Shown one piece after another: positions 3,756 through 23,647 of a stretch of 24,092 nt of DNA. This DNA comes from a virus, in IMG/VR virus record IMGVR_UViG_3300043446_002749, positions 1 through 24,092 of that record; one strand, 5' to 3'. The notes beneath the pieces are model-generated. The model worked only from the letters and a program-made list of their open reading frames with translations. It was not told the origin of the DNA and did not search any database. The translations under genes were made by a program, and so were the position numbers. Numbering within the stretch: the stretch's first letter is position 1; each line of letters starts with the position of its first letter.

Positions 3756-3893
3756 ATGAACACTCCAAACTGGAAGCATCACTCCAAAAAAGAACAGAAA
3801 CGAAAACTTAAACCGCAAGCACTGAGGCAAGCAAAAGCACGAAGACAAGCACTCAAGAAGCGTCTCAATCAACGAGACGCTTCTTTTTTATAA
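3756..3893 (+). CDS. small basic ORF, 45 residues
   Basis: An ATG-to-TAA frame encodes a strongly basic peptide beginning MNTPNWKHHSKKEQKRKLK and ending RLNQRDASFL. It has regular Lys/Arg/Gln helix-forming content and no hydrophobic segment. The terminator hairpin at 3856-3889 lies in its last codons, and its TAA overlaps the TATAAATA motif. A short highly charged frame can arise by chance, but the sustained basic helix and an ATG in the gap after the endonuclease make a real gene plausible. A nucleic-acid-binding role would be a guess from charge alone. No clear ribosome binding site is seen. Confidence 0.45.
   Translation: MNTPNWKHHSKKEQKRKLKPQALRQAKARRQALKKRLNQRDASFL
3856..3889 (+). terminator. 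intrinsic terminator
   Basis: An 11-bp perfect stem (AGAAGCGTCTC at 3856-3866, GAGACGCTTCT at 3874-3884) with a 7-base loop is followed by a six-T run. It closes the transcript from genes 47, 46 and the GIY-YIG gene. An exact late-promoter motif begins directly at its end. Confidence 0.85.
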
Positions 3894-3896
3894 ATA
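3889..3896 (+). promoter_or_regulatory. late promoter (exact TATAAATA)
   Basis: An exact match to the T4 gp55-dependent late promoter element lies 19 bases before the ATG at 3916, straight after a terminator. The same motif at almost the same distance (20 bases) precedes the paralogous gene at 21341. A handful of exact matches is expected by chance in this AT-rich window, so the weight comes from position and recurrence. Confidence 0.7.
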
Positions 3897-3915
3897 ACTA
3901 AAAAGTATTTGTAAA

Positions 3916-4548
3916 ATGGACGCACAAGAACTTCGCAATATTCAAGAAGCATATATGGAAGTTGTTGAAAATCAGCAACTTGATGAAGGATATAAAAGAT
4001 ACAGCAACAGAAAAGTTCATGATAAAATGGATAAGTTGAAATCAAAAGGAGATCTTGAAAGTATAGGACGCGCTGGACAAATTCGTGATAAACTTATTAA
4101 AAGGTCGTTTAGCATTCAAATCCCAGATAGAGAGGAAAAATTTAATAGAAATAAACCAGAAAAATATAAAAGAAGTAAAACAGTTTCTGATAATACTGAA
4201 AAGAAAAAGTCATTTCCAAATCGTCTAACTAGGAGTGATAGGCAAGGTATTCGTGATAGTTATGATTATTATGATGTCATCCTCTCACACCTTCTTGATG
4301 AGGGATATGCCGAAACACCAGAAGCAGCAGAAGCAATAATGGTGAGTATGAGTGAAGAGTGGAGAGAGAGTATTGTTGAAGGATTAGGTGGTGCTAAAAA
4401 TCAAGGTGATTATGAAGAAAGAGAAAAAGAAAGACAAAGAGTTCGTGATGAGCACCTACGAAAGTATAAAAGTGGAGAACTTCCTTTTCAAAAACAAAAA
4501 AAAGCAGACCAAGCACAAGAGTTCTTGAAAAAACATCCGAAAAAATGA
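3916..4548 (+). CDS. unknown late protein with putative head-targeting leader; paralogue of 21341-21715
   Basis: The 210-residue charged protein has no recognised enzymatic domain. It has three parts. Residues 1-24 (MDAQELRNIQEAYMEVVENQ then QLDE) are an amphipathic leader ending LDE|G. The middle (about 25-110) is basic. The third block around 115-155 (YDVILSHLLDEGYAETPEAA, then MSEEWRESI) recurs in many cyanophage virion-associated proteins as I remember them. T4 prohead protease gp21 cuts after Glu in L/I-x-E sites, and LDE|G at 22-24 fits, so packaging into the head is a reasonable inference but unproven. A terminator plus exact late promoter directly upstream fits a late gene. A shorter relative sits inside the split gene 41 locus, with 46 identical bases in the leader. 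Confidence 0.8.
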   Translation: MDAQELRNIQEAYMEVVENQQLDEGYKRYSNRKVHDKMDKLKSKGDLESIGRAGQIRDKLIKRSFSIQIPDREEKFNRNKPEKYKRSKTVSDNTEKKKSFPNRLTRSDRQGIRDSYDYYDVILSHLLDEGYAETPEAAEAIMVSMSEEWRESIVEGLGGAKNQGDYEEREKERQRVRDEHLRKYKSGELPFQKQKKADQAQEFLKKHPKK

Positions 4549-4626: not shown

Positions 4627-6816
4627 ATGCCTGTTCGCCACGAAATCAAATCTCAACTTGCCAAACTGCTTGCCACTGAAGATTTGGTGGTGGAGCACAA
4701 GAAGGTCTCTACTGCCTGCTTTAACGTCCATACTCGTGTTCTCACTCTTCCTTTGTGGGAGAAAGCGAGTGGACTCGTCTATGACCTTCTGGTGGGTCAT
4801 GAAGTCGGACATGCTTTGTTTTCTCCTGATGAAGACTGGAGTGAAAAGGTAAAAGTTCCACAACAGTTTGTGAATGTTGTTGAGGATGCTCGTATTGAGA
4901 AGTTGATGAAGCGCAAGTATGCTGGACTTGCGAAGACTTTCTATAATGGTTATAAAGAACTGAACGAAGACGATTTTTTTCAGATTGCTGAAGAAGATAT
5001 TTCTACCTTTAATCTTGCTGACCGAGCAAATCTGTTTTTCAAAATTGGAAATTATACTTATATTCCTATTGAAGATGGCGAAGAGCAAGAAATTATCAAT
5101 CTAATTGCAACCAGTGAAACTTTTTCTGATGTTTTGATTGCTTCTGAAGAACTTTATAAGTACTGTAAGAAACAAAAAGAACAACAGCAAAAGGTTGCTG
5201 ATTTTGATTCTCACGAAACTCAAGGAAATTCTCAGTCTGCTGGTAGTGAAACTGTAGAGACTAATGACTCCTCTTCTGAGCAAGAAGGTGGGACTGATAA
5301 CTCTCAACCGGAAGAGGGTGATGGGTCCTATGGTGGAACTGCTCAGGGAGACCAGACTCCAGTAAAATCTTCTGATGAAGAAAAAGAACCAGAAGTCCGC
5401 ACTGCTGATTCCCTTGAAGAAAAACTTCAGAGTCTTGTTGGAAATGATTTATATGAAAATAATTATGTAGAAGTTCCTCAACTCAATCTCGACACTGTTA
5501 TTGGTAAAAATTCTGAGATCCATAAGGAAATTGATAATTCCTTTACTCATCAGCAAAAACTTCACAACGAACACGCTAAAGGTAGGGGGTATACTCCAGT
5601 AAATCTTTACAAAGAATCTGATCTTGAATTTAAGAAATTTAAGTCTTCTGCTCAGAAAGAAGTAAACTATCTGGTAAAGGAGTTTGAGTGTCGTAAAGCA
5701 GCAGATCAGTATGCTCGTGCATCAACTGCTCGCACTGGTGTTCTTGATACTGCACGTCTCCATACTTACAAATACAATGAAGATCTATTTAAAAAGGTTT
5801 CTATAATTCCTGATGGTAAGAATCATGGATTGGTGTTTGTATTGGATTGGAGTGGTTCTATGCAGGATGTAATGCTTGATACTTGCAAGCAACTCTTTAA
5901 TCTAATTTGGTTCTGCAAGAAAGTTTCTATTCCTTTTGAGGTTTATGCATTCACTAATGAATGGCGTCGTGGTGAGTATGATTACGAAAACGATCGTTAT
6001 ATCGCTGCAGACCGCACTCCTCACTATGAAAAGAAAGAGAGTTTGTTAGTTGTAGACGAAACTTTTTCTATGATGAATATTCTTACCAGCAAAGTTTCTG
6101 GTAAGGAATTGGAGCACCAACTTCTTAATATTTGGCGTCTTGCTTATTGTTTTGGTAGGACTTATCAATCTCCGTATACTTATCCTAATCGCTTATCTCT
6201 TTCTGGTACTCCTCTGAATGAAGCATTGATTTCTCTTCACCAGATTCTTCCAAAGTTTCAGCGTGAAAACAAACTCCAGAAAGTTCAGTGTATCGTTCTG
6301 ACTGATGGTGAGGCAAATCAACTCACCTATCATAAAGAATTAAAAGTAAGTTGGGAAAAAGGCACTCGTCTTGGTAGTGGATATGTTAACTCATATAATA
6401 CTCTTCTTCGGGATCGTAAACTTGGAACTACCTATAAAATCAATGATGGATATCATGGATTTACTGATACTCTCCTTAATAATCTGAAAGATAAGTTTTC
6501 TTCTACAAACTTTATTGGTATTCGTGTTCTTGAAAGTCGTTATGCTCATCGTTTCATTCAACTTTATCATTCTCAACTTGATAAGCAGTATGAAAAAATC
6601 CAGAATGATTGGAAGAAACTAAAGAGTTTTACTATTACTAACTCTGGATATGACGCCTACTTTGGACTGTCTGCTACCGCACTTTCTCAAGATACTGAGT
6701 TTGAAGTTGCTGAGGACGCTTCGAAGGCGCAAATCAAATCTGCGTTTGTGAAGTCTCTAAAAACTAAGAAACTAAATAAAAAAGTATTAGGAGAATTTAT
6801 TTCTTTGGTAGCATGA
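4627..6816 (+). CDS. HExxH + von Willebrand A protein (CobT-like), partner of CobS-like ATPase
   Basis: The 729-residue protein has three zones. Residues about 1-190 contain HEVGH at 58-62 followed by VEDARIE near 86, a zinc-metallopeptidase-like arrangement. Residues about 195-270 are a low-complexity Ser/Glu/Gln/Gly linker. The C-terminal half is a VWA domain with MIDAS motif DWSGS at 407-411, a Thr in SGTPLNEAL and LTDGEA downstream. VWA proteins beside MoxR/CobS AAA+ ATPases typically act as a remodelling or chelatase pair. Cyanophage copies are usually labelled cobalamin-biosynthesis CobT. The intact HExxH is not part of the classic CobT description, so protein maturation or proteolysis is as likely as cobalt insertion. 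The ATPase gene lies three genes on. Confidence 0.85.
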   Translation: MPVRHEIKSQLAKLLATEDLVVEHKKVSTACFNVHTRVLTLPLWEKASGLVYDLLVGHEVGHALFSPDEDWSEKVKVPQQFVNVVEDARIEKLMKRKYAGLAKTFYNGYKELNEDDFFQIAEEDISTFNLADRANLFFKIGNYTYIPIEDGEEQEIINLIATSETFSDVLIASEELYKYCKKQKEQQQKVADFDSHETQGNSQSAGSETVETNDSSSEQEGGTDNSQPEEGDGSYGGTAQGDQTPVKSSDEEKEPEVRTADSLEEKLQSLVGNDLYENNYVEVPQLNLDTVIGKNSEIHKEIDNSFTHQQKLHNEHAKGRGYTPVNLYKESDLEFKKFKSSAQKEVNYLVKEFECRKAADQYARASTARTGVLDTARLHTYKYNEDLFKKVSIIPDGKNHGLVFVLDWSGSMQDVMLDTCKQLFNLIWFCKKVSIPFEVYAFTNEWRRGEYDYENDRYIAADRTPHYEKKESLLVVDETFSMMNILTSKVSGKELEHQLLNIWRLAYCFGRTYQSPYTYPNRLSLSGTPLNEALISLHQILPKFQRENKLQKVQCIVLTDGEANQLTYHKELKVSWEKGTRLGSGYVNSYNTLLRDRKLGTTYKINDGYHGFTDTLLNNLKDKFSSTNFIGIRVLESRYAHRFIQLYHSQLDKQYEKIQNDWKKLKSFTITNSGYDAYFGLSATALSQDTEFEVAEDASKAQIKSAFVKSLKTKKLNKKVLGEFISLVA

Positions 6817-9274: not shown

Positions 9275-9311
9275 TAATATTTTTCTAAATAATAGTAGTT
9301 GAAAAATATTA
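9275..9311 (+). promoter_or_regulatory. hairpin with late-promoter-like motif before HNH gene
   Basis: TAATATTTTTC (9275-9285) and GAAAAATATTA (9301-9311) are perfect 11-base inverted repeats around a 15-base loop, directly before the ATG at 9312. TCTAAATA at 9284-9291 (7 of 8 to the late consensus) spans the loop boundary. Late RNA would begin in the loop and lack the left arm, so only read-through RNA could fold over the translation start. Confidence 0.5.
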
Positions 9312-9770
9312 ATGTCAAAAAATCAATATAAAAATAAAACAGCGAAAGAATATCAGCAGGAATGGAAAACTAAAAATAGAGAAAAGCAACGACAACTTCA
9401 AAGAGACCATTATAATAAGAAAAAAGAGTATTTGCTTGAAAATGTTGGAAGTACTTGTGTATCTTGTGGTTCAACATCAAATATTGAATTTGATCATATT
9501 AGACCAAGAACATCTTCTGAAAAGGAAAAGCAAACTCGTCTTAGAACTGGTAACATAGGAGGAAACATAGTATGGAATAAAAGACCATCTGCTATGAGTT
9601 GGGAATGTATTAAAAAAGAAATTCCTGATTTACAATCTCTTTGTAGAGATTGTCATCGAAAAAAATCCAACGCACAACTTGCTGCTGCTTGGGAACTTTT
9701 TTGCTCTTTAACTCTTGAAGAGCAAACCAAACTTACAAATTTACAATATGGAAAAAATGAAATTCTCTGA
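9312..9770 (+). CDS. HNH homing endonuclease
   Basis: The 152-residue protein has a very basic N-terminus (residues 1-40, rich in Lys/Gln/Arg) followed by a zinc-supported HNH domain. The domain shows C49-x-x-C52, D61-H62 in FDHIRPR, then C111-x-x-C114-H115 and N120. This is the CxxC / DH / CxxCH layout of phage HNH enzymes. It lies directly before sliding clamp gene 45 and overlaps its start by 14 bases, so it has invaded the gene 45 leader. Its own start is preceded by a hairpin holding a late-promoter-like motif. It is AT-rich like the other endonuclease genes here. Confidence 0.88.
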   Translation: MSKNQYKNKTAKEYQQEWKTKNREKQRQLQRDHYNKKKEYLLENVGSTCVSCGSTSNIEFDHIRPRTSSEKEKQTRLRTGNIGGNIVWNKRPSAMSWECIKKEIPDLQSLCRDCHRKKSNAQLAAAWELFCSLTLEEQTKLTNLQYGKNEIL

Positions 9771-10422
9771 CAAAACACTTACGCTTCTCAAGAATTTTTC
9801 GTCTATTAATCAAAGTATTCTTTTCAAAAAGGGAAATCACTTGCGTAGTATTAGTGTGATGAAAAACATCCTTGCAGAAGCAACAATTGATGAAGAACTT
9901 CCTAAGGACTTTGGTATCTATGACTTGAACCAGTTTCTGAATGGTCTTAATCTCCATCAGAATGCTGAACTTGATTTTCAGAATGATGGTTATGTAGTTA
10001 TTAAAGAAGGCAAGTCTCGTTCTAAGTATTTCTTTGCAGATCCTAATGTGATCGTTACTCCTCCCGAAAAGGATATTGTTCTGCCAAGTGAAGATGTTTG
10101 TTTCCTTCTTGATACCAAGGAACTTGATAAACTGCTTAAGGCTGCTGCTGTGTATCAACTTCCTGATCTGTCTGTGGTTGGTGAAGCAGGTGTGGTGAAA
10201 CTAGTGGTTCGTGATAAGAAGAACGATACTTCTAACGACTTCTCTGTGGTGGTTGGTGAGACTGATGAAGTCTTCACTTTCAACTTCAAAGTGGAAAATA
10301 TTAAGATTCTCCCTGGAAATTATGAAGTGGTAATCTCAAGTAAACTTCTGTCACGATTTAAGAATACTGGATTTGATGTGAGTTATTGGATTGCTTTGGA
10401 ACCTGATAGTCAGTTTAGTTGA
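9757..10422 (+). CDS. 45: gp45 sliding clamp
   Basis: The 221-residue product is the trimeric DNA clamp for gp43 polymerase and, in T4, the co-activator of late transcription. It begins MKFSDKTLTLLKNFSSIN, like T4 MKLSKDTTALLKNFATIN. IYDLNQFLNGL near 48-58 and the C-terminal part with FNFKVENIKILPGNYEVVIS match T4 FNFIINMANMKMQPGNYKLLL. T4 gp45 has 228 residues. In-frame ATGs exist at 9715, 9748 and 9757. I choose 9757 from the T4 alignment and the GGA just before it. The gene is bracketed by an HNH gene upstream and a GIY-YIG gene downstream. Confidence 0.93.
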   Translation: MKFSDKTLTLLKNFSSINQSILFKKGNHLRSISVMKNILAEATIDEELPKDFGIYDLNQFLNGLNLHQNAELDFQNDGYVVIKEGKSRSKYFFADPNVIVTPPEKDIVLPSEDVCFLLDTKELDKLLKAAAVYQLPDLSVVGEAGVVKLVVRDKKNDTSNDFSVVVGETDEVFTFNFKVENIKILPGNYEVVISSKLLSRFKNTGFDVSYWIALEPDSQFS

Positions 10423-10426
10423 TATG

Positions 10427-10468
10427 AAAGTATCCTATTATATAAATAATAATGTAATAGGATACTTT
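10427..10468 (+). promoter_or_regulatory. late promoter in the loop of a 14-bp inverted repeat
   Basis: AAAGTATCCTATTA (10427-10440) and TAATAGGATACTTT (10455-10468) are perfect inverted repeats. The 14-base loop starts with exact TATAAATA at 10441-10448. The right arm contains AGGA at 10459-10462, eight bases before the ATG at 10470. Gene 45 read-through RNA would bury this ribosome binding site. RNA started from the late promoter (near 10454-10455) lacks the left arm and leaves it free. The hairpin may also help end gene 45 transcripts. Confidence 0.8.
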
Positions 10469-10469
10469 T

Positions 10470-11036
10470 ATGTTTATCTATAAAATAACAAACATAAAAA
10501 CTGAAGAATTTTATGTTGGACAAACTATTAAAAATATTGATTATAGATTTAGAAAACATAAAGAAATGTCTATCCGTGGAGGTGGATATAAACTTCATAA
10601 TGCTATGAGAAAATATGGTGTTGAAAATTTTATTATTGAGATTTTAGACACTGCTAAAGATTTGTGCGAATTGAATGAAAAAGAAATTCATTATATAGAT
10701 TTACTTAAACCTTATTACAACATTCTTCCCGGAGGGCAAATTAGATTAACTGAAAGTTCTATTAAAAAAATGCAAAAAAGTTTAACTGGAAAAAAACAAC
10801 CAAAAGAACTTATTGATAAAAGATTTAAAAAATTAAGAGAACTTGAAAACGATAAACAATTTCTTATTAGACGAGGTAAAAGTTTAAGTGTATCAAAGAA
10901 AAAAACATACTCAATAGAAGACACGTATTTTACTGGACTAGATGAAGTTGCCAAACATTATAATATAAGTTATAGTTGTGCTAGAGCAAGAGTAAAATCA
11001 TCTTCTCCAACTTGGAAAAATTGGATTAAACTTTAA
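10470..11036 (+). CDS. GIY-YIG homing endonuclease with DNA-binding tail
   Basis: The product has 188 residues. The nuclease domain shows FIY at 2-4, YVG at 15-17, catalytic-type R26 and E72, and NILPGG at 84-89. A NUMOD3-like basic segment lies around 98-120. A C-terminal NUMOD1-like helix-turn-helix unit (FTGLDEVAKHYNISYSCARA, about 150-170) ends WKNWIKL. It belongs to the Seg/I-TevI-like group and is related to but distinct from the enzyme at 3088. It follows gene 45 with only the regulatory hairpin between, so the cut site is plausibly in or near gene 45 of competing phages. The codons are very AT-rich. Confidence 0.9.
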   Translation: MFIYKITNIKTEEFYVGQTIKNIDYRFRKHKEMSIRGGGYKLHNAMRKYGVENFIIEILDTAKDLCELNEKEIHYIDLLKPYYNILPGGQIRLTESSIKKMQKSLTGKKQPKELIDKRFKKLRELENDKQFLIRRGKSLSVSKKKTYSIEDTYFTGLDEVAKHYNISYSCARARVKSSSPTWKNWIKL

Positions 11037-11046
11037 TCTTTATATT

Positions 11047-20208: not shown

Positions 20209-20695
20209 AAAATATCCACAAGACTGGGATCATCAAAAACATCTTAAAGATTCTCAGTCTTTAGTTGATAGGGGATTTGCAGACTTGCCTGTAAGTGCTC
20301 TTCAACTTATAATGGGTGGAGTTAAAAGCAAAGAAGACTTTGTTGGAGACTCTGAAATTAGTATCAAGACTCCTGCATATGAACATCACAGTGAAATAAG
20401 AAAGATTATACGCAAGAACTTTGGAAATAGAGAATTGCACCGTTGTGGTTTTCTTTCTTTGCCTGTTGATGAAATTGTGGGGGCACATATTGATGAAGGA
20501 ACTTATTATCTAACTCGGGATAGATATCACCTTTCTATTCTTGGTAGATATCAGTATTTCTGTGGAACAGACACTGTGATTGTTGAACCAGGAACTCTTT
20601 TGTGGTTTAATAATAAATTACCTCACGGCACCGTTAATATTGGTGACGAGACTAGAATAACGTTTGTATTTGATATGCCTCATGGACAAAGTTGA
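20153..20695 (+). CDS. aspartyl/asparaginyl beta-hydroxylase-like Fe(II)/2OG dioxygenase
   Basis: The product has 180 residues from ATG 20153 ([20 protein letters not shown]). The ATG at 20132 adds seven hydrophobic residues and is less likely. The C-terminal half carries a jelly-roll signature: RCGFLSLP (97-104), H112-x-D114, RYHLSIL (124-130), PGTLLWFNNKLPHGTVN with H158, and R168 in the final strand ITFVFD. His-112, His-158 and Arg-168 suit iron and 2-oxoglutarate binding. The substrate is unknown. It overlaps both the small gene before it (56 bases) and gene 41 (14 bases), so it belongs to the uvsX-41 operon. Confidence 0.8.
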   Translation: MIKILKTKINVNKVVEQLKKYPQDWDHQKHLKDSQSLVDRGFADLPVSALQLIMGGVKSKEDFVGDSEISIKTPAYEHHSEIRKIIRKNFGNRELHRCGFLSLPVDEIVGAHIDEGTYYLTRDRYHLSILGRYQYFCGTDTVIVEPGTLLWFNNKLPHGTVNIGDETRITFVFDMPHGQS

Positions 20696-21317
20696 GTTTC
20701 TTATTCTTCGCAATCTTTTGCATAATGAAGAATATGTTCGTAAAGTAATTCCATTTCTTAAGTCAGAATATTTTGAGGATACAAATCAAAAAGTTGTATT
20801 TGAAGAAATCTTAAAGTTTATTCAAGAATACAATGAACGAGCAACAAAAGAGATTCTTTGTATTGAAGTAGAAAAGCGTCAGGATATTAATGATACTTCC
20901 TTTAAAGAAATCACTCATCTGATTGGATGTCTTGATGATGTTCCAGTAGAGTTTAATTGGCTATGTAATACTACTGAAAAGTGGTGTCGTGATCGTGCTA
21001 TCTATCTTGCACTCATGGAATCCATCCATATTGCAGATGGTGAAGATGAGAAAAAAAATCGTGATAGCATTCCAAGCATTTTGTCAGATGCATTATCAGT
21101 ATCTTTTGATACTCATATTGGTCATGACTATCTGCTAGACTATGAGCAACGTTATGAGTCTTATCACAGAAAGGAAGAGAAAATTGAATTCGACCTTGAG
21201 TACTTTAACAAAATCACAAAAGGTGGTCTACCTAATAAGACTCTCAATATCGCTCTTGCTGGTTGCGTTCACCCCGAAACCAAAGTTAAAATCAGGTTTA
21301 GGAAGTTAAAAATATAA
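20682..21317 (+). CDS. 41: gp41 helicase N-terminal part fused to a 17-residue N-intein
   Basis: The start is ATG 20682 (MDKVEFLILRNLLHNEEYVR), which aligns with T4 gp41 MVEIILSHLIFDQAYFSKVW; the in-frame ATG at 20664 is ignored. Residues 1-194 are the gp41 N-domain and linker up to NIALAG. At codon 195 the helicase stops and an intein begins: Cys195, then VHPETKVKIRFRKLKI and TAA. CVHPETKVKI is an intein block A start with the splice-site cysteine. Seventeen residues are far shorter than the about 100 of usual split N-inteins, but resemble the atypically split class (AceL-TerL, VidaL). The stop codon lies in the TATAAATA at 21313-21320. The protein must join the 22475 product to give an ATPase. 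Confidence 0.92.
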   Translation: MDKVEFLILRNLLHNEEYVRKVIPFLKSEYFEDTNQKVVFEEILKFIQEYNERATKEILCIEVEKRQDINDTSFKEITHLIGCLDDVPVEFNWLCNTTEKWCRDRAIYLALMESIHIADGEDEKKNRDSIPSILSDALSVSFDTHIGHDYLLDYEQRYESYHRKEEKIEFDLEYFNKITKGGLPNKTLNIALAGCVHPETKVKIRFRKLKI

Positions 21318-21320
21318 ATA
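21313..21320 (+). promoter_or_regulatory. late promoter (exact TATAAATA) inside the gp41-N/intein stop
   Basis: An exact late element overlaps the last codon and TAA of the gp41-N frame and lies 20 bases before ATG 21341. It can drive only the duplicated gene that follows. The distance equals, within one base, that of the paralogue at 3916. Confidence 0.7.
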
Positions 21321-21340
21321 AACTTATAGTGTAAAAAAAG

Positions 21341-21715
21341 ATGGACGCAAAAGACATCCGCAATCTACAAGAAGCATATATGGAAGTTGTTGAAAATCAG
21401 CAACTTGATGAAGCAAGAAAAAAGGTAAAAATAAAGACTAATAAACCAGTTGAATATAAGATTGCTGATATTGGACCAGGAAAGAAAGAATATAATGTAA
21501 AGACTTCCAAGGGGTGGAAAGAAGAAGTAGATATTTACGATGTCATCCTCTCACACCTTCTTGATGAAGGATATGCTGAAACCCCAGAAGCAGCAGAAGC
21601 AATTATGGTGAATATGAGTGAAGAGTGGAGAGAAGGTATTCTTGATGAGGCAAATCGTGGTGATGAATATGCAACAAGAGGTATGAGTTCTGCATCTAAG
21701 ATCTCAAAACTTTAA
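21341..21715 (+). CDS. unknown late protein between the gp41 halves; paralogue of 3916-4548
   Basis: The 124-residue protein repeats the layout of the 3916 protein but has a much shorter, different middle. The leader MDAKDIRNLQEAYMEVVENQ then QLDE|A contains the same L-x-E|small site, and the block YDVILSHLLDEGYAETPEAA with MSEEWREGIL follows. Bases 21368-21413 are identical to 3943-3988 (46 in a row), so the duplication is recent or kept by gene conversion. It is a late, possibly head-packaged protein riding inside a broken early gene. Its stop is followed by 51 bases and then the 3' end of the reverse HNH gene. I see no catalytic motif. Confidence 0.8.
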   Translation: MDAKDIRNLQEAYMEVVENQQLDEARKKVKIKTNKPVEYKIADIGPGKKEYNVKTSKGWKEEVDIYDVILSHLLDEGYAETPEAAEAIMVNMSEEWREGILDEANRGDEYATRGMSSASKISKL

Positions 21716-21766
21716 GAGAAATCCTCCAAAAAGAAGCACAAGTTACTACGATAATTGATATAAATT

Positions 21767-22435
21767 TTAATTGTTATTTCTAACTTTGGAATTTGGTGCA
21801 GGTTCTCCTGTTCCAAATTTCCAACCTTCATTTAACTTCATATCAACATCTTCTGGAAGTATTCTTTTCCATCCTTTTGTTCCTGGTAAGTGCATTACTT
21901 TCTTACCTTTGTGTGCTTTTCCTCCAAGAGATGCTCTTTCTTGTCTTCCTTGATTGGATGCCCAGTAATTAAACTCTTTGGATGCTCTCTTTTTTCCTCC
22001 AAGAGATGCTCTTTCTTTTCTACCTTCTTCTGTGCTCCAATAATAAAAATTTTTAACTTTGTCATTTAAATATTCTTGTTTTTGAGTTTCTATTCCTCTA
22101 ATCATCCATTCCTTTCTTTCTTCTACTGGAATTGAAAAGAAACCAATTTGATTGTCCCTACAAAATTCTCCAATTATTTTTCTATGTTGTGTTGATAAAT
22201 TCGCATCTAACATTTTCATAGATCTTAAATCATTTGGATTTTTATAAATCTTCCAAAGTAAATAATGTGCTATGATATGTTCTCTAACATTCAAGTATGT
22301 AAGGTTGCAATCATCATCTGTTCCTCCCATATGTTTAGGAACAATATGATGTTCGTGCAATCCTGAATATTTTTTGTAATCTTCTTTTCTTGACTTATTA
22401 CCCTCACATAGGTTAGAATAGATACGATCAAACAT
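21767..22435 (-). CDS. HNH homing endonuclease, reverse strand, between intein halves
   Basis: This 222-residue protein is the only reverse gene. The HNH core is LHEHHIVPKHMGG (26-38) with H29/H30, N44 and REHIIAH (51-57), a beta-beta-alpha metal fold of phage type. Two copies of YW..(E/N)(E/Q)GR.ERASLGGK lie at 132-148 and 157-173 (a tandem NUMOD-like DNA-contact unit, also visible as a repeated DNA block near 21928 and 22001). The tail has GWKRILPEDVDMKLNEGWKF. It has an exact late promoter 27 bases upstream. It presumably cuts an intein-less or unsplit gene 41 allele, but the site is not identifiable from this window. AGGG just before the ATG may serve as ribosome binding site. Confidence 0.9.
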   Translation of the reverse strand: MFDRIYSNLCEGNKSRKEDYKKYSGLHEHHIVPKHMGGTDDDCNLTYLNVREHIIAHYLLWKIYKNPNDLRSMKMLDANLSTQHRKIIGEFCRDNQIGFFSIPVEERKEWMIRGIETQKQEYLNDKVKNFYYWSTEEGRKERASLGGKKRASKEFNYWASNQGRQERASLGGKAHKGKKVMHLPGTKGWKRILPEDVDMKLNEGWKFGTGEPAPNSKVRNNN

Positions 22436-22462
22436 CCCTGTCCCTGCTACTGCTAATACTAT

Positions 22463-22470
22463 TATTTATA
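22463..22470 (-). promoter_or_regulatory. late promoter (exact TATAAATA) for reverse HNH gene
   Basis: Read on the reverse strand, 22470 to 22463 is TATAAATA, 27 bases before the HNH start. The two start codons (22435 reverse, 22475 forward) are only 39 bases apart, so this is a divergent junction that also forms the leader of the gp41 C-part. Confidence 0.7.
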
Positions 22471-22474
22471 TAAA

Positions 22475-23647
22475 ATGTGGATTGAAAAAGAAACATCAAT
22501 TGCTGAAATCAAAACATTACTTGATAATGGATATGAGGTAGAAGTTGATTCGCCCGATGGATATGTTCCAGTCAATTTCTTTATCAACAAAGGAATGTAT
22601 GATGAATATGTTTTAAAGGTTGATGGTGGAGAACCTGTGAGATGTAATGCCGATCATTTATTTGAAACGTCTTTTGGATGGATGAAAGCATCTCATCTTT
22701 ATGAAAAATACAAGACAAATCATTTTCTAACAAAAAATGGTTATAAACTTGGAAGTGTCTTTAAGACAGGAAATCAAATACCTATTGTTGATATTAATGT
22801 AAATCATCCAAATCATAGGTATTATACTAATGGTGTTTCCTCCCATAATACTGGTGTAGGTAAATCCTTGTTTATGTGCCATGTTGCTGCTTCCGTCTTA
22901 CTGCAAGGCAGGAACGTTCTGTACATCACTCTTGAAATGGCGGAAGAGCGAATTGCAGAGCGAATTGACGCAAACCTTCTCAATGTCCCGATTCAGGATA
23001 TTGCGGAACTTCCGAAGCAGATGTTTGAGAATAAAGTAACAAACCTTTCAAAGAAAACTCAAGGTACATTAATTATCAAAGAGTACCCAACTGCTTCTGC
23101 TCATGCTGGTCACTTCAAGTCTCTCTTGAATGAACTTGCTTTGAAGAAATCTTTCAAACCAGATATTATCTTTATTGACTATCTGAATATCTGTGCGTCT
23201 TCAAGATATCGTGGAAATAGTAATATTAACTCATACACTTTTGTTAAGTCTATTGCTGAAGAACTCCGTGGTCTTGCTGTTGAGTTTAATGTTCCTATTG
23301 TAAGTGCTACTCAGACAACTCGTTCTGGTTATGGTTCTTCCGATGTTGAACTTACTGATACTTCTGAGTCCTTTGGTCTTCCTGCTACTGCTGACCTCAT
23401 GTTCGCCCTTATTAGCACTGAAGAGTTGGAAGAGTTGGGGCAGATTCTTGTAAAACAACTTAAGAATCGCTATAATGATCCTACCATCCATAAACGTTTT
23501 GTGATTGGCATTGACAGAGCAAAAATGAGACTATATGATTGTGAACAGTCTGCTCAAAATGATATCCTTGACAATGGAAATGAAGAAGAGTATGATTATC
23601 ACAAAGAAAACAAACCTAAAAAAACATTTGAAGGATTTAAATTCTAA
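22475..23647 (+). CDS. 41: C-intein (125 residues) fused to gp41 helicase C-terminal part
   Basis: An in-frame TAA at 22454 shows that this part has its own start. Residues 1-125 are the C-intein: MWIEKETSIAEIK opens it, block B is near 51-75 (GGEPVRCNADHLFETS, His61; the usual TxxH is NxxH here), and block F runs from VDINVNHPNHRYYTNGVSS to H124-N125. The next residue, Thr126, is the splice nucleophile, and the helicase resumes as TGVGKSLFMCH. Joined to the N-part this gives AGTGVGKS, a whole Walker A. Later features are YITLEMAEERIAERIDANLL and DIIFIDYLNI (Walker B). The C-extein is 265 residues; 194+265=459 against 475 in T4. Base composition shifts: 22741-22800 16/60 G+C, 22921-22980 28/60. 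Confidence 0.93.
   Translation: MWIEKETSIAEIKTLLDNGYEVEVDSPDGYVPVNFFINKGMYDEYVLKVDGGEPVRCNADHLFETSFGWMKASHLYEKYKTNHFLTKNGYKLGSVFKTGNQIPIVDINVNHPNHRYYTNGVSSHNTGVGKSLFMCHVAASVLLQGRNVLYITLEMAEERIAERIDANLLNVPIQDIAELPKQMFENKVTNLSKKTQGTLIIKEYPTASAHAGHFKSLLNELALKKSFKPDIIFIDYLNICASSRYRGNSNINSYTFVKSIAEELRGLAVEFNVPIVSATQTTRSGYGSSDVELTDTSESFGLPATADLMFALISTEELEELGQILVKQLKNRYNDPTIHKRFVIGIDRAKMRLYDCEQSAQNDILDNGNEEEYDYHKENKPKKTFEGFKF

Follow-up and report, generated by a model that had tools for sequence, protein, structure and literature searches.

A late-promoter hairpin as a candidate timing switch on a mobile GIY-YIG endonuclease cassette of a T4-like cyanophage

Control of phage endonucleases by a hairpin combined with a late promoter is a known mechanism, described for I-TevI to I-TevIII, segB and mobE (reviewed in PMC2988022 and PMC3014915). 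In the T4 elements I-TevI and I-TevII, the promoter overlaps the hairpin, the ribosome binding site is located in the right arm and late RNA is devoid of the left arm (PMC2988022, PMC3014915). Among free-standing endonucleases, a sequestering hairpin was shown for mobE of Aeromonas phage Aeh1 and implicated for T4 segB (PMC2988022, PMC3014915). RNA structure likewise hides the start site in the leaders of T4 gene e, soc and gene 49; late transcripts of gene e start downstream of the left portion of that structure (PMC3014915).

The locus described here resembles I-TevI and I-TevII in the three respects given above. Yet, the genes of both T4 elements lie inside group I introns, whereas the present gene is free-standing, its cassette being inserted between an intact gene 45 and the next gene, which sets it apart from the I-TevI class. 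Moreover, the late motif lies wholly in the loop, instead of in or across the left arm as in I-TevI and I-TevII. T4 segB and Aeh1 mobE (the latter compared by description) are likewise free-standing endonucleases with a sequestering hairpin. Their insertion sites differ, however, segB being found among tRNA genes and mobE, an HNH enzyme, in nrdA; their stem sequences are also different, and the present case comes from a T4-like cyanophage that has numerous relatives. Gene e, soc and gene 49 of T4 are phage genes, in contrast to the mobile endonuclease cassette considered here. The idea, raised in the sequence-only reading, that this logic applies to a free-standing enzyme was supported by our results; as a novelty it did not stand, since Aeh1 mobE and T4 segB were already published (PMC2988022).

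The window (i.e. the whole stretch of DNA analysed, a 24 kb virus record) comes from a T4-like cyanophage. Genes 47, 46, 45, 44, 43, uvsX and 41 were recognisable in it (Pfam, or by eye where unsearched), and gene 45 with its surroundings displayed about 66-71% DNA identity to Synechococcus and Prochlorococcus phages among the best matches listed. An ORF of locus L139 (7734-8240), akin to the window ORF at 6813, was assigned by Pfam to the S-adenosylmethionine lyases (E 3e-18). The window harboured at least four endonuclease genes (Table 1), and a clear hairpin was missing at two of the four tabulated. The ORF at 10470-11036 matched GIY-YIG in Pfam (E 8e-9) and homing endonuclease in PHROG (E 9e-30); it counts on these matches as a homing-type endonuclease with putative cutting and homing activities. 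No relative above 60% identity was found for it in cultured phages.

In our estimation, there is a probability of roughly 85% that the hairpin preceding this gene acts in cis as a timing switch and is brought along by the mobile cassette, for which we infer promoter activity, RNA start and translation block. Transcripts initiated ahead of gene 45 at early or middle promoters would read through and fold the hairpin, burying AGGA and AUG, so that the enzyme would not be made early. Late RNA polymerase would initiate in the loop near G10454, and the resulting RNA, without the left arm and unable to fold, would be translated.

Table 1. Positions of the features discussed, in window coordinates.
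Feature	Position	Strand	Basis
GIY-YIG endonuclease gene	3088		by eye
Second hairpin, 11-bp perfect arms TAATATTTTTC / GAAAAATATTA around TAAATAATAGTAGTT, directly before ATG 9312	9275..9311	+	
TCTAAATA, late motif in second hairpin	9284-9291	+	
Free-standing HNH endonuclease gene behind second hairpin	9312..9770	+	Pfam, PHROG
Gene 45 (sliding clamp), intact, upstream of hairpin	9757..10422	+	
Inserted cassette (hairpin and GIY-YIG gene), gene 45 stop to ATG of next gene	10423..11046	+	empty alleles
Hairpin left arm AAAGTATCCTATTA, predicted anti-ribosome-binding-site strand, in read-through RNA only	10427..10440	+	
Loop TATAAATAATAATG	10441-10454	+	
TATAAATA, T4-type late promoter motif, in loop	10441..10448	+	
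Predicted late RNA start (G, 6 nt past motif)	10454	+	inferred from T4 late promoter spacing
Hairpin right arm TAATAGGATACTTT, includes AGGA 10459-10462	10455..10468	+	
Free-standing GIY-YIG homing endonuclease gene	10470..11036	+	Pfam, PHROG
HNH endonuclease gene within split gene 41	21767-22435	-	Pfam/PHROG

The sequence confirmed what had been noticed initially, namely a perfect 14-bp inverted repeat around TATAAATA with AGGA in the right arm before the GIY-YIG start. AGGA is separated from the ATG by 7 nt, and the helix reaches from about 10424 to 10471 once G-U and inner pairs are counted. The RNA start was placed at G10454 according to the spacing of T4 late promoters. The late motif is thereby positioned in such a way that late RNA would be deprived of the left arm (predicted +1 at 10454, end of left arm at 10440). 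Counting perfect inverted repeats of 14 bp or more whose loop measures 6-25 nt gave a single one in the window, versus none in 40 dinucleotide shuffles; for repeats of at least 12 bp, two were found versus a shuffle mean of 0.03. The published cyanophage late promoter is NATAAATA (PMC2984593). Its core was not enriched in the window (11 matches versus 10.2 expected), and the non-random part is its placement in a hairpin loop ahead of an endonuclease start.

All four exact TATAAATA sites of the window were followed, at a distance of no more than about 30 nt, by the start of an ORF. Gene 41 (20664-23647) is apparently split by a split intein, with the minus-strand HNH gene between the halves; TATAAATA is found about 28 nt upstream of the start of that gene, and no strong hairpin was observed there. 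At window positions 3860-3916, the T tract of a terminator-like hairpin leads directly into TATAAATA, followed by an ORF at 3916.

Using one script, the read-through leader was folded and compared to an RNA beginning 6 nt past the motif. In the window read-through RNA, all 18 start-region nucleotides were paired, exclusively to bases upstream of the predicted +1, and the ribosome binding site and start codon are predicted to be held in a stable hairpin. From read-through to late RNA, folding energy went from -27.5 to -1.3 kcal/mol and mean unpaired probability of the start region from 0.00 to 0.54. The T4 controls I-TevI, I-TevII and segB displayed 12-14 of 18 nucleotides paired, nearly all to bases preceding the +1, with respective energies (read-through, then late RNA) of -20.7 and 0.0, -26.4 and 0.0, and -25.2 and -5.2. 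The predicted +1 was a purine in all rows folded. The proposed match to the logic of T4 I-TevI was supported by the same predicted geometry in the same script, as it was for I-TevII and segB.

The hairpin was present in 13 IMG/VR relatives. A covariation alignment was built from 11 sequences (the window and ten relatives), in which the 14 stem pairs were kept in 96.1% of cells. At four pairs both partners had changed: one G-C to C-G, one A-U to U-A, and two separate C-G pairs to U-A. This compensatory level was reached in 1 of 500 shuffles. When the partner was slid by 1-3 columns, only 33.8-52.7% of cells were paired, with at most one two-sided change. The loop [C/T]ATAAATA was kept in all 11 aligned orthologues and fits NATAAATA. 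Imperfect stems displayed both G-U and A-C mismatches (by eye and in small numbers).

Comparison with related phages delimited the cassette, which is about 624 bp long. In empty alleles, the stop of gene 45 overlaps the next start (TGATG, e.g. TGATGAACAT), and no hairpin was found after gene 45 in related phages without insert. Since the empty alleles are devoid of it, the hairpin is part of the inserted cassette and not a gene 45 terminator. Empty and occupied alleles were found at one same site. These empty sites, together with covariation and predicted folding, support the earlier suggestion that read-through RNA would hide the site and late RNA leave it open. The isolates ACG-2014f Syn7803C25 and P-TIM68 displayed longer spacing after gene 45, filled by hypothetical or other genes, and no late-promoter hairpin was seen there by eye; in the homologues of ACG-2014f and MA01, the upstream late motif was absent. 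At the same gene 45 3' end, locus L137 (10664-11231) harbours an unrelated endonuclease (PHROG endonuclease / Endo VII), likewise preceded by an imperfect hairpin around TATAAATA.

The design recurred ahead of other endonuclease genes. The hairpin of the HNH gene starting at 9312, just upstream of gene 45, was kept in most relatives and imperfect in some. A scan for [AC]TAAATA inside hairpins covered 177 sequences (loci and window, 1.5 Mb), where every ORF starting close behind the right arm was endonuclease-like (representatives classified with Pfam and PHROGs). At least seven endonuclease groups share the design at several sites of T4-like, mostly cyanophage genomes. Occupied sites were gene 45 / pyrimidine dimer glycosylase, glycosylase / gene 44, DUF3310 / gene 45, CbbQ / DUF3310, sigma-70 region 2 protein (late sigma according to the S-SRM01 annotation) / gene 47, and the inside of gene 43. 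The adjoining clamp gene had initially been given a special meaning, which was rejected since the same design also occurs at other places, among them sites beside late sigma / gene 47, next to the gene of the clamp loader and within the polymerase gene; the clamp link looks incidental. No clear Shine-Dalgarno sequence was found in the right arm of the HNH and Endo VII groups, where the block would therefore act on the start codon region.

Enrichment was surveyed in an exploratory way in 81 gp45-centred sequences, which are related to each other, by considering ORFs with an upstream late motif and taking hairpin score 9 as strong. Strong hairpins surrounded the late motif of 15 of the 31 endonuclease ORFs versus 0 of 79 others (Fisher 2.6e-10, related sequences counted) and, by protein cluster, of 5 out of 9 versus 0 out of 23 (P 6e-4). 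ATAAATA was located in strong hairpins in 14 of 162 instances, versus 0-2 in 123-220 for control 7-mers sharing no overlap with the loop sequence; the overlapping control AATAATA alone came near (9/230). The predicted accessibility gain from read-through to late RNA amounted to 0.20 for endonucleases versus 0.09 for others (P 0.004).

In locus L092 (6602-9438), an HNH endonuclease gene with the same hairpin design sits inside gene 43 (DNA polymerase) and interrupts it. A separate GIY-YIG group (L202 and L208-L211, around 1930-2001) displayed GATAAATA or TATAAATA in the hairpin loop, and its L202 member immediately precedes a gene 47-like phosphoesterase gene.

Other readings of the stem were weighed against this evidence. 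An intrinsic terminator of gene 45, standing by chance ahead of the endonuclease gene, could account for the TTTT after the stem and for a terminator scan that flagged the site. Yet, the scan was at chance level (3 found versus 2.8 in shuffles), termination there would cut off downstream gene 44, and a T tail is lacking from kindred designs ahead of other endonucleases. The AT-rich stem with 3 G-C pairs only, the T run inside it and the empty alleles without hairpin also distinguish the site from intrinsic terminators, which makes this reading highly improbable. The stem might alternatively be an RNase III or RNase E processing site governing RNA stability and not translation, as RNase E processing was reported for segB, segG and Aeh1 mobE transcripts (PMC2988022). 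Such a site would leave unexplained both the late motif in the loop and the right arm ending at the start codon in many groups, and we hold it to be the least probable of the readings considered.

The inverted repeat could also be a DNA operator through which the late promoter is repressed, either by the endonuclease or by some other protein. I-TevI binds an overlapping operator and represses its own late promoter (PMC2988022), and the mirrored arm changes reported above would also suit a palindromic site, so that covariation alone cannot separate the two. However, the operator of I-TevI resembles its homing site and is not a palindrome (PMC2988022). Furthermore, different endonucleases, whose arm sequences are unrelated, share a geometry of arm, promoter and start codon that an operator does not require. 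An operator is very unlikely in our view, and could coexist with the RNA switch.

Returning to the timing switch, we lean towards the view that many unrelated free-standing endonucleases (GIY-YIG, HNH and Endo VII-like) in T4-like phages of cyanobacteria and their relatives each reached the same portable late-promoter hairpin, with differing stems. If true, late-only expression would be a general requirement for endonucleases settling in early or middle gene clusters, and the late-promoter hairpin could be used to recognise them. Full-text searches of open-licence papers gave no title, abstract or matching terms describing such a switch in cyanophages. In a review, seven free-standing endonucleases of T4 are regarded as cassettes without a promoter, so that a late switch which is self-contained and common among cyanophages would constitute an extension. 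With covariation and many independent cases in support, a form of regulation known from few T4-family genes is extended in this way to cyanobacterial T4-like phages. This suggests that a built-in delay accompanies mobile endonucleases, sparing neighbouring replication genes.

The cultured Synechococcus phage S-SRM01 (MW015081; 50 kb examined) offers two such candidate switches for testing. They were the two strongest cases, both ahead of Endo VII-type genes. The gene at record position 126172 is preceded by a perfect stem of 20 bp that encloses two copies of ATAAATA, and the one at record position 142306 by an 11-bp stem, this second site being flanked by gene 47 and the annotated late sigma factor.
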